In this document: piece by piece, positions 4,121 through 10,049 of the stretch | How positions within the stretch are numbered: the stretch's first letter is position 1 | Layout: each line of letters begins with the position of its first letter | From: Rhodothermales bacterium | GTDB taxonomy: Bacteria; Bacteroidota; Rhodothermia; Rhodothermales; Bin80 | Reading direction: 5' to 3' | DNA: 64,000 nucleotides | Assembly: GCA_951812585.1 (NCBI GenBank) | Contig: OX638318.1 | Location: 2,106,380 to 2,170,379, forward strand | Translations under genes and position numbers: made by a program | Notes under the pieces: generated by a model | What the model saw: the letters and a program-made list of their open reading frames with translations, nothing else | Told to the model about the DNA's origin: nothing | Database searches by the model: none

Positions 4121-4533
4121 GGGGCTTATAACGATAACTTTACGGGTTAACCACAACGTGAGGGTCGTGCGTTTTTGCGTAACAGCCTCACATACCAGAA
4201 ACTGCCTATAACAAGTTGGCTCTACAACTTAGCAGTGGTTCGCATCAATAAAGCTGCACGGTGTCCACCAGGCGCTGCCGGCTGTACTTCTGCGCATCAA
4301 ACCCAGACTCGCCATGCCCCAACAGCTCCCGCAGCAAATGATCTTGTTCGCCCGGTACAACAACGCATCGTAGTCCAGATCCAGGCACTGCTTGACAATG
4401 GCAAACACGATGACGCGCCATAGGTCCATGCCCGGTTGCAGATTCACCGCAAAACGGAAGATATAACTGATTGCCGTGTAAAGACTTAAAGGATTCTCGA
4501 ACAAGCACGAGTTAAGCGTATAAGTCCCTTTAA
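4121..4533 (-). pseudogene. ISNCY-like transposase N-terminal remnant with element end
   Basis: The minus strand carries a broken transposase N-terminus in two frames. From about 4500 one frame reads NPLSLYTAISYIFRFAVN, then VIVFAIVKQCLDLDYDALL. After a shift near 4365 the other frame reads EQDHLLRELLGHGESGFD and QRLVDTVQLY. Joined, this fits the N-terminal part of ISNCY/IS1202-type transposases (LDLDYD.L..AN....LR..LGH). The stretch just upstream (4510-4533) is an insertion-element end. A loosely similar inverted sequence at 4123-4145 may be the other end of this deletion derivative. It is certainly non-functional; the family assignment is from memory. Confidence 0.6.
4510..4533 (-). repeat. 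Insertion-element terminal sequence, 24 bp, shared with 8128-8151
   Basis: The reverse complement of 4510-4533 is identical over 24 bp to 8128-8151, the left end of the IS1595-like element (core CTTATACGCTTAACT). The right end of that element, 9955-9984, carries the same core. Here it sits directly upstream of an ISNCY-like transposase remnant rather than an IS1595 transposase. Confidence 0.7.
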
Positions 4534-5035
4534 TATAGATGCCCAGACTGGATTGGGGAGATATCTTGGACATGCCCAGACAGGAAGGGGCAGGTACCTG
4601 GGAGATGACCTAGACATGATGGGTATCGACTCAAGCTATGTGTTCATGGCGAGCAACGCTCCGTTCCCACAGGCCGCCATACACAAGCCAAAAGCGGGAG
4701 CCAACTGACTTGGGCGCTTGTTGGACCTTAGGCAATCGCTAGGCCCGTGGCTGTGCGGTGGGCAACATGCTCGGTCATGCGCGGCTTTGCATCCGGTCGT
4801 GCCTTGACAAAAGGCAGTACGATTTAACGGAGACTTGTCCATTGCGGCTGTAAACACCGGAACGCGGGTTTCAGCGTGTATTGGCCTGCTTTGCTGCGGG
4901 CATGCATGCCGAAAATCACACCAGCCTCCAAAACTGTAAGCCGACTTAGGGTACTGACGTGCTCCAGCGGGCGAGGTGAACCCGCACCGCAACAGGTGGC
5001 TGCTCATGTTATCATCATGCTCGCCCGAATGACTA
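4534..5035. other. Intergenic DNA, nothing recognised
   Basis: About 500 bp between the transposase remnant and a broken beta-propeller gene. Open frames exist on both strands (the longest spans 4636-5187 on the minus strand), but their translations show no domain, no signal peptide and a composition typical of out-of-frame high-GC DNA. I see no RNA gene. Confidence 0.5.
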
Positions 5036-7750: not shown

Positions 7751-8128
7751 CCAGCAATAGCACCCACTGGTGGTCTACCGCTGGCAGCGACATCAAGCAT
7801 TGAACGGCACTTGACTTCAACCGCCTCGTGACAAGGCAAAAGCCGAATCAGGCGTATTGCTGGGCCAGCATGTGGATTCTGACGCATCTGCGGGAGATCG
7901 AGTTCTTCAGCATCGAAGAATTGAACCGGCAGATCGCCCCGCTCTTGGTGGAGCTCAATAGCAAGCCCTTCCTGAAGTGGGAAGACAGCCACCGTAACCT
8001 GTTCGAAACGGAGGAGCGGCCCGCATTGTGCCCTTTGCCGCCGCATCCATACGTCTTCCGGGAATGGAAAAAGGCGAAGGTCCGCATCGACTACCATGTC
8101 GAAGTCCACAACGCCTTCCACAGATATT
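7750..8128 (+). pseudogene. istA: IS21-family transposase IstA, decayed fragment
   Basis: One frame around 7790-7860 reads LQPPRDKAKAESGVLLGQ after an in-frame stop. A shift then gives MWILTHLREIEFFSIEELN and FLKWEDSHRNLFETEERPAL. The end is LPPHPYVFREWKKAKV and RIDYHVEVH. This is the conserved stretch of IstA just after the DDE core (KDKAKVE...RWILARLR...FFSLAELN...YHVEVD). The frame stops exactly where the IS1595-like element begins, so that element probably inserted into this IS. No istB helper is present. Confidence 0.75.
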
Positions 8129-8131
8129 AAA

Positions 8132-8160
8132 GGGACTTATACGCTTAACTACGCAATCCT
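8132..8160 (+). repeat. Left terminal inverted repeat of the IS1595-like element
   Basis: 29 bp beginning GGGACTTATACGCTTAACT; pairs with 9955-9984 on the opposite strand. Confidence 0.75.
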
Positions 8161-8884
8161 TTTTGGCTCGCCTTGATGCAGGCCGTGGGTCTGGTGGACT
8201 CTTTAGGTACAAACAGTGCAAGGAGGACGGCTCGGGCTCGCCGGTGCGCTTCCATGGGTATGCGGTCTTGGGCCTCTTGTTGGGCCTGCGGGTCGTTGCC
8301 GACGGTGGCGTTCGTTTTGGAGTCGCCGTCGTGCTGCATAGTGCACCAGGTTAAGCGACCAGGCTGGGATATGTGCTCGTAGAGAACGAGCGGCGCTTGG
8401 GTCGGGCAGCCCGTGCGCTCCTTTAACATGGCGTTTAGCGACAGCACTGTTACCACATCGTCGGGGACCCTTACTTTTGAAGTCCGCTTTCCCGCTTGCC
8501 ACCTGCCGCAGGATCGCAATGCAGGTAGATGCTCCCAGTTGGCGTCCACAGGCGACGCATTTCCCGTAAGCGTATGGCCATGTAGCACATGTACATTCCC
8601 ATGGATTCCGCGTGCGCTGTCCTGGCACTCTCTGTCGCTTTCATCCGTACGGGTAGGCCTGCTTTATTCTCGTCTGCCCAAGACTGGCGCATACCTTCCC
8701 CCGCTCCAATGGCCATGAACGAAGCACCGGCGGCTAAGCTATTTGGTGTGGCATGCGCGTCCTTTTTCTTGGTGAGCGACGGATCAGTAGCGATCAGATC
8801 TACCGTACCACGGTTCATGGCCCACATAAACGGCAAGTGGTCCCCGTGAATCAGGGTGCAGCTATTTCAGTTTGGCTTAGCCAT
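8145..8884 (-). pseudogene. Site-specific DNA methyltransferase (N6/N4 type), decayed passenger gene
   Basis: The minus strand starts at an ATG (8882-8884) with MAKPN, then an in-frame TGA, then CTLIHGDHLPFMWAMN and TVDLIATDPSL, where the catalytic DPPF/Y motif would be. It continues DAHATPNSLAAGASF, TAHAESMGMYMCYMAIRL and PTGSIYLHCDP. After a frame change, 8480-8390 reads LNAMLKERTGCPTQAPLVLY. These are hallmarks of beta-class DNA methyltransferases (HGDNL...DLIATDPPF...GSIYLHCDPT...ERTGYPTQKPL). Nonsense, frameshifts and a degraded catalytic motif show it is dead. It lies 24 bp after the transposase stop inside the same inverted repeats. Confidence 0.75.
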
Positions 8885-8888
8885 TGTT

Positions 8889-8902
8889 CCCCCCCCCCCC
8901 CC
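8889..8902. repeat. Homopolymer tract of 14 G (minus strand) before the methyltransferase start
   Basis: Fourteen consecutive C on the plus strand, so G14 on the coding strand, between the transposase stop (8909) and the methyltransferase ATG (8884). It directly follows GAG, so it occupies the ribosome-binding-site region. Long G tracts here can change length by slippage and alter expression. Confidence 0.9.
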
Positions 8903-8908
8903 TCAAGG

Positions 8909-9907
8909 CTACTGTTGTAAGTGTACGCGCTCCTCATCAGTCAGCTCTCGGTAGCACAAGCGGCGGCCAACCATTGCAGCGGCCAAATGCTGCATCTGCT
9001 TCAAAGTGTCCAGGTCCCGAAGGTTGTGCCGAGTAGCAAACTCGTTAACGTACCGAGCCAAGTGCTTCGGACTCATCTTGTGATAGGTGCCATGATACCC
9101 ACGCTTCAACAAGGCCCAAAAGCTTTCCAAACCATTCGTGTGGGCCATGCCGTTTACGTACTCCGATACCGAGTGCTTCACCGACTCGTGATGCAACAGG
9201 CCTTCGTATGCCTTGGCCTCATCTGTGTATACCATGGCACCCTCCTGAACGTTGTCCAGCACGAATCCTTGCAAGGTCCTCTTATCTGTGCGCTCCACCA
9301 CCTGAGCCTTCACCCTGTTGGTGGAACGATCTTTGATACCCGCCACCGCAACTTTACCCACGGTGCCCCTACCGGCCTTGCGCCTCTTGCGCTCGTGCTT
9401 GTTGCCTTCCTTACCGCCAACGTACGTCTCATCCGCCTCTACGGGGCCGGCAAACAGCTCCTCAGTGACCCCAGCTACCTTCATAGCCTCTCTAATCCGA
9501 TGCGATAGGTGCCACGCCGTAGCCTGCCGAATATCCAAGTCCCGATGCAACTTCATGCTGAACAAACCCTTAAGGCTGCTGACATGAAGATAGATGGTAA
9601 TGGCCCAAAGGCGCAAAGGTAAGTGGGAAGACTCCATTACCGTCCCCAAACGTACGCTGAATCCCCGACGACAACTGTCGCACCACCACGGCATGGGCTT
9701 GCGAGACTCCCTGCGGTTAACCTTGCAGCTGTAACAGCGAGGACAGGATACCTCCTTAACCGCAAAGCCTCAACGCCCCTCCTCAAACCACTGCTCGGCA
9801 GCCGCCTCATCAGGAAATAAAGCACACAACTCCAACAGGCTGATGCCCTCACGGTACGACCGCCCAGGACCTCCAGATCCCCGAGTTCGACCTGCCTTGC
9901 CTTGCAT
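8909..9907 (-). pseudogene. IS1595-family transposase with an internal TGA
   Basis: From the ATG at 9905-9907 the frame reads RSYREGISLLELCALFPDE and WFEEGR, then TGA (near 9766-9768), then GFAVKEVSCPRCYSCK and a zinc-ribbon end MPWWCDSCRRGF. The DDE domain follows: GPVEADETYVGGKEGNKHER (first Asp), YTDEAKAYEG (second Asp), THRHG-like MAHTNGLESFWALLKRGYHG, then YVNEFATRHNLR. It is 332 codons, normal for the family. The TGA stands where a Trp fits and is the only lesion. Without it, translation would have to restart at the ATG near 9694, losing half of the zinc ribbon. The homologue at 23196-23884 shares the N-terminus (GPERSYRKGISMAKL). Confidence 0.8.
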
Positions 9908-9954
9908 AGCGCTCCAATGGTTTCGTTCGTTTCCTTATACGCACACCTCACAGC

Positions 9955-9984
9955 AGGATTGCGTAGTTAAGCGTATAATTCCCC
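9955..9984 (-). repeat. Right terminal inverted repeat of the IS1595-like element
   Basis: 30 bp; its reverse complement begins GGGGAATTATACGCTTAACT and continues identically to the left repeat at 8132-8160. Confidence 0.75.
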
Positions 9985-10049
9985 AATAAAGAGTAGATAT
10001 GCACCGACACGGAGATGATAATGCTTATTAGGACTTGGCGATACAGATG

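Follow-up and report, generated by a model that had tools for sequence, protein, structure and literature searches.

Positions 8132 to 9983 of the window, by which we mean the whole 64,000-nucleotide stretch of a Rhodothermales genome analysed here, hold two broken genes between inverted repeats. The locus raises the question of whether a transposon once carried a DNA methyltransferase (MTase) and, if so, what kind of passenger that enzyme was. The initial annotation had described an element of IS1595 type whose passenger is an MTase, a description borne out by the terminal inverted repeats (TIRs), by Pfam and NCBIfam matches of the transposase and by a profile match of the MTase. Its main idea, a self-methylating transposon, fared less well: nearly all intact relatives encode a nuclease together with the MTase, either in the same protein or as a partner. 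We consider it probable that the window element is a dead IS1595 transporter insertion sequence (tIS) that carried a compact restriction-modification (R-M) enzyme, and that its relatives are R-M vehicles with swappable cargo.

A decayed element with a methyltransferase remnant

The element is 1,852 bp long; its right end had been placed at 9984 and lies at 9983. The repeats around both genes are near-perfect, as first described (29 nt, 97% complementary), and begin with the GGG that is a hallmark of the IS1595 family. Their 19-nt core occurs twice in the window, against 0.01 occurrences expected from shuffling, and in the 3.2-Mb genome it marks just the two element ends with 3 mismatches allowed; the element is the sole copy with its inverted repeat in its own genome. 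A search for other gene pairs bounded by this repeat, proposed at the outset, did recover pairs between related repeats, but the exact repeat (CTTATACGCTTAACTACGCA) was seen in the source genome alone, the relatives sharing its GGGA[AC]TTATA start and differing further inward.

Table 1. Features in and around the window element, with the target-site duplications (TSDs) of six relatives from the same order (tnp, transposase gene).
Feature	Positions	Strand	Sequence or remark
Exact 27-bp inverted copy of 8124-8150	4510-4536	-	8 bp of flank and the outermost 19 bp of left TIR
Left 8-bp flank	8124-8131		ATATTAAA; right flank (9984-9991) is CAATAAAG
Left TIR	8132-8160	+	GGGACTTATACGCTTAACTACGCAATCCT; GGGA[AC]TTATA start as in TSD-validated relatives
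Degraded 3' part of cargo	8161-8369		neither catalytic motif I nor a nuclease domain detected
MTase remnant with ERTGxPTQxPLxLYE (PTQKP) motif	8370-8471	-	shifted frame; i-E 4e-7
Beta-class (N6_N4) DNA MTase, N-terminal part	8474-8884	-	ATG at 8884; in-frame stop at codon 6 (8867-8869)
Spacer, transposase stop to MTase ATG	8885-8908	-	24 bp; 14-nt G tract (coding strand) at 8889-8902
IS1595-family DDE transposase pseudogene	8909-9907	-	one in-frame stop (9770-9772)
Right TIR	9955-9983	-	GGGAATTATACGC..., reading inward
L066			TSD TAAAAAAT; tnp and MTase-nuclease between TIRs
L067			TSD TAAAAAAA; tnp and MTase-nuclease between TIRs
L068			TSD CAATTTTA; tnp and MTase-nuclease between TIRs
L069			TSD ATTTCTAT; tnp and MTase-nuclease between TIRs
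L070 inner			TSD AATCCAGA; tnp and MTase-nuclease between TIRs
L076			TSD AATCAAGT; tnp and MTase-nuclease between TIRs

The 8-mers on the two sides of the element are unequal, leaving it with no TSD, and its empty site had no match in nine family genomes. An inverted copy of the left flank and part of the left TIR lies some way to the left (Table 1), its identity ending precisely 8 bp outside the TIR; this copy may be the end of another decayed element or the result of a rearrangement. Replicative inversion was considered as its source and rejected on account of incompatible flanks. A decayed relative of about 400 bp with degenerate repeats may lie at 4129-4528. Directly left of the element, a relic ORF (7828-8130) with a weak Mu-transpos_C_2 match (PF22483, E 0.003) is truncated by the element's left end and has no continuation in the right flank; by eye it looks like IS21 IstA.

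Both genes are broken, as had been reported. The transposase carries a single in-frame stop; its ORF (8909-9694, minus strand, 261 aa) belongs to a frame that reaches back to an ATG at 9907, and it matches Pfam DDE_Tnp_IS1595 (PF12762, 4e-40) and NCBIfam IS1595 (NF033547, 3.7e-54, 183.8 bits against a cut-off of 75). Catalytic residues D88, D158 and E190, in the numbering of that ORF, are retained and are invariant in our transposase alignment (A1). The MTase begins 24 bp past the transposase stop, the distance originally given (ATG at 8884, stop end at 8909), and the run of 14 C between them (14 G on the coding strand) is a possible slippage tract. The MTase itself has an early stop, an internal deletion and a shifted frame. 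Its open stretch (8474-8866, minus strand) contains DLIATDP and TGSIYLHCDP motifs and matched a profile of 19 intact MTase-HNH proteins at 9e-50, over their N-terminal part only, and about 100 residues are absent between this part and the PTQKP piece. An HNH remnant had been suspected by eye in the degraded 3' part of the cargo; the same profile matched nothing there, its hits being confined to the N-terminal MTase part and the PTQKP piece. With a stop in its transposase and a deletion in its MTase the copy is dead, and movement of its own is impossible. The remnant lies between the TIRs, as a tIS passenger does, and relatives hold an intact counterpart there.

The nearest relatives of the window MTase (55-58%) are all MTase-HNH fusions, and from this homology the window cargo was most likely a beta-class MTase fused to a C-terminal HNH nuclease. 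Because neither repeats nor an IS1595 transposase were detected beside the closest of these relatives (L078-L082), it is homology that links the window MTase to the IS-borne MTase-HNH proteins. In the window copy neither a nuclease remnant nor a TSD is left, and both absences count against the explanation we prefer. The MTase fragment had no match in phages, and in plasmids it matched distant Mesorhizobium MTases only. One family genome (G005; L081, L082, L163-L171) has 14 matches to it; the majority are MTase-HNH genes with 48-56% identity to it and no IS1595 transposase nearby, and L081 adjoins an IS66-type transposase. In the source genome, at least 20 further IS1595 transposase matches were examined, nearly all split over several frames and none completely intact. 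A second transposase-MTase pair lies there outside the window (L063, 2223500-2229500), with an MTase-HNH frame open over 470 aa, a frameshifted transposase and degenerate repeats.

Intact relatives, their cargo and its exchange

Intact relatives had been considered possible, and many genomes do hold a transposase-MTase pair that is intact and lies between such repeats. The two genes adjoin repeatedly in genomes of the same order, where six elements combine GGG(A/G)(A/C)TTATA repeats with exact 8-bp direct repeats outside them (Table 1). The sites of two of these insertions are uninterrupted in sister genomes (L068 in G009 (C9) and G007 (C10); L067 in G015 (C6) and G011 (C8)); the existence of these empty sites confirms that the elements are mobile, with the gene pair as a unit. 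The transposase stop and MTase start overlap by 1-4 bp in L066, L067 and L069. In another genome (G048; L064, L105, L174, L175) a 1,237-bp IS1595 with TSDs is present in about six copies; at its 3' end about 47 MTase residues lie on the opposite strand, the remains of a cargo in an IS that multiplied recently.

We then scanned the transposase alignment against 84,980 species genomes, which gave 80 wider-relative loci, and counted an element as validated if it had inverted repeats and 8-bp target duplications differing at no more than one position (42 of 80). R-M genes or their remnants were present in 22 of the 42 (18 with beta-MTases, counting L101 and L105 in which only remnants survive, and 4 with other R-M types), a fraction that may be biased upward since the transposase set came mostly from MTase-bearing elements. 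Roughly half of the validated elements had other or no recognisable cargo, and R-M cargo is thus common, not universal.

MTase domains of the relatives matched PF01555 at 1e-30 to 1e-50, and by Pfam the N6_N4_Mtase domain was followed by one of three nuclease domains: HNH (L063, L068, L069, L070, L076, L111, L129, L142, L158), Mrr_cat (L066, L067, L103, L147, with L091 slightly below the cut-off) or the GIY-YIG domain T5orf172 (L100, L133, L144). Judged by its domains, such a beta-MTase-nuclease fusion would be a one-protein R-M unit. Other cargos comprised HSDR_N-N6_Mtase with Methylase_S (L083), MT-A70 with a BglII-type restriction endonuclease (REase; L113), a C5-MTase with GIY-YIG (L119), and a C5-MTase with an NgoFVII-type REase (L162; PADLOC REase_II, 2.5e-128); in L112, for which no TSD was called, an N6_N4 MTase is accompanied by a BglII-type REase. 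The cargo therefore resembles an R-M module more than it does an MTase that marks its own element or alters expression.

Some TSD-bearing IS1595 elements carry cargo outside R-M, namely a secreted trypsin-like protease (L141), a CsgG-like protein (L095) and Excalibur/SNase (L084), and cargo in the remaining validated elements was unrecognised and often lipoprotein-like. Genes directly after N6_N4 MTases at L160:6022-6762 and L125:5967-6602 are candidate new restriction endonucleases; neither had a significant match in Pfam, PADLOC or NCBIfam, nor did the L160 gene in PDB sequences.

Cargo has been swapped between transposon backbones. In two Flavobacteriaceae MAGs, L160 and L162 are 89.6% identical over an initial 1,161 bp that takes in the left end and the transposase, and 92% identical over the final 167 bp, while their middles are unrelated, encoding an N6_N4 MTase and a 246-aa protein in L160 versus a C5-MTase and an NgoFVII-type REase in L162. 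L125 and L128 show the same pattern with a different pair of cargos, and across 21 transposase-MTase pairs the distances of the two proteins were uncorrelated (Mantel r = -0.09, p = 0.80). It is this combination of shared ends and transposase, unrelated R-M genes and uncorrelated distances that establishes exchange.

These data bear on the proposal that methylation of the element or its promoter by the MTase would adjust transposition or host gene expression, in the way that Dam acts on IS10 and IS50, and would leave the nuclease a secondary role. The MTase does lie directly downstream of the transposase gene, often overlapping its stop codon, and methylation control of transposases is known in other ISs (PMC9296519). 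However, almost all intact beta-MTase cargos have a nuclease domain or candidate partner, with three unrelated nuclease folds among them, the cargo is convergent or divergent to the transposase gene in L111, L115, L133, L158 and L134, and cargo type varies while the transposase stays constant (L160/L162, L125/L128), making self-methylation an unlikely account of these elements. We regard as very unlikely a homing-like spread in which the nuclease half would cut empty or unmethylated target DNA instead of serving addiction or defence: although HNH and GIY-YIG are also folds of homing nucleases, and the HNH domain of L068 resembles those of IscB and Cas9, insertion sites vary, the 8-bp AT-rich duplications are the pattern of a DDE transposase and not of fixed-site homing, and separate type II REases (BglII-type, NgoFVII-type) occur among the cargo. 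That a plain IS1595 landed by chance beside an unrelated MTase relic, as the initial annotation had allowed and as the decayed, single-copy window element taken by itself might suggest, is scarcely credible, since both genes lie between the repeats, pairs between such repeats recur with TSDs in many genomes, and the elements contain 18 beta-MTases in 87.7 kb of cargo (transposase excluded) against 0 in 221.5 kb of flanks of the same loci, which refutes it.

R-M genes also lie between such repeats with no transposase of their own. L071 (1,539 bp) consists of an MTase-HNH gene between repeats and has the TSD TTCATTTT on both sides; the outer element of L070 has the same composition and the TSD TATTTCAT twice, and is interrupted by the transposase-bearing inner element, whose repeat is near-identical.

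A possible mechanism and its precedents

In an IS1595 tIS carrying an R-M enzyme, as we read these elements, the cargo bay would extend from the transposase gene to the right end. By analogy with its family, the DDE transposase would act on the 20-38-bp GGG(A/G)(A/C)TTATA repeats and move the entire unit, with insertion at AT-rich sites and 8-bp duplications as seen in the anatomy of the elements and their empty sites. In many cases the cargo gene begins inside the final codons of the transposase gene, so the two are probably translated together. The predicted activity of the cargo is to methylate a short DNA site and cut unmarked DNA. If it behaves as type II R-M systems do, loss of the element would put unmethylated host DNA at risk of attack and retention would provide defence; the cargo would stabilise the transposon, and the transposon would spread the R-M unit. 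A transposase already resident in the cell could mobilise in trans those R-M units that retain nothing but the repeats.

The IS1595 family was reportedly described by Siguier, Gagnevin & Chandler in 2009 and is covered by ISfinder. The present elements resemble the IS1595 tISs ISNha5, MTnSag1/tISSag10 and tISCpe8 in their DDE transposase, GGG repeats, 8-bp AT-rich TSDs (seen in the relatives of the window copy) and a passenger between the transposase gene and one end. These traits and passengers have been described (PMC5704250, PMC12561309, PMC11891212), and passenger-carrying tISs are an accepted category within it (PMC5704250, PMC11891212). IS1595 tIS passengers named in the papers surveyed are regulators or lincomycin resistance, whereas the present elements carry R-M; methyltransferase passengers have been cited for an IS1380-family element (PMC11891212). 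We found no R-M modules, MTase-nuclease fusions or cargo swapping on IS1595 in the literature surveyed, the 2009 family paper and ISfinder lying outside that survey.

That R-M genes travel with IS elements has been documented by the Kobayashi group, together with some R-M units bearing inverted repeats and short target duplications but no named mover, post-segregational killing by type II systems, and collaboration between ISs and R-M (PMC3031569, PMC3874152). The movement described there involves composite transposons, plasmid cointegrates or units lacking a named transposase; in contrast, here one unit transposon family holds R-M inside its own repeats, and transposase-less R-M units share those repeats. 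Passengers on tISs and R-M on transposons are thus already known, and R-M modules on IS1595 are apparently new to the surveyed literature. The family is a candidate mover for R-M units that have inverted repeats and no transposase. Single-chain type II systems (types IIC/IIG) similarly combine a methylation and a cleavage domain within a single protein chain, but the predicted enzymes here place a beta-class MTase N-terminally and an HNH, Mrr PD-(D/E)XK or GIY-YIG domain C-terminally. MTase scaffolds joined to three nuclease folds offer material for testing the origin of single-chain R-M enzymes.

Distribution among host communities

Going by record titles, validated R-M carriers belong to at least five phyla, namely Pseudomonadota, Rhodothermota, Chloroflexota, Gemmatimonadota and Bacteroidota. 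Most come from the MAG series SB06xx, RHO, COS, CAR and APA, which we take to be sponge-microbiome sets, and R-M-bearing relatives thus occur mostly in what look like marine-sponge symbionts. Type I and II R-M systems have been found almost exclusively in sponge-associated MAGs and not in those from seawater, and lateral transfer of R-M by mobile elements was suspected with the carrier left unnamed (Robbins et al., 2021; PMC8163846). The present elements provide one such vehicle, a compact unit transposon whose own repeats enclose the R-M gene and which has TSDs, empty sites and swappable cargo, and suggest a route by which R-M defence genes spread in these communities.

A broader reading, on which we are evenly divided, is that this IS1595 clade is a general, cross-phylum R-M vehicle with interchangeable cassettes in apparent sponge-symbiont communities, and that many seemingly solitary R-M units with inverted repeats and short target duplications are transposase-less derivatives moved in trans. 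If true, it would supply a mechanism for both the enrichment and the lateral transfer of type I/II R-M genes in sponge symbionts. On six non-sponge plasmids, too few loci for a rate, no R-M gene was annotated within 4 kb of the IS1595 transposases, and one of the six had a VapC toxin. In plasmid pMOC1 of Methylobacterium oryzae (L206), the IS1595 transposase is followed by a hypothetical gene and then a VapC toxin gene, a possible toxin-antitoxin cargo.
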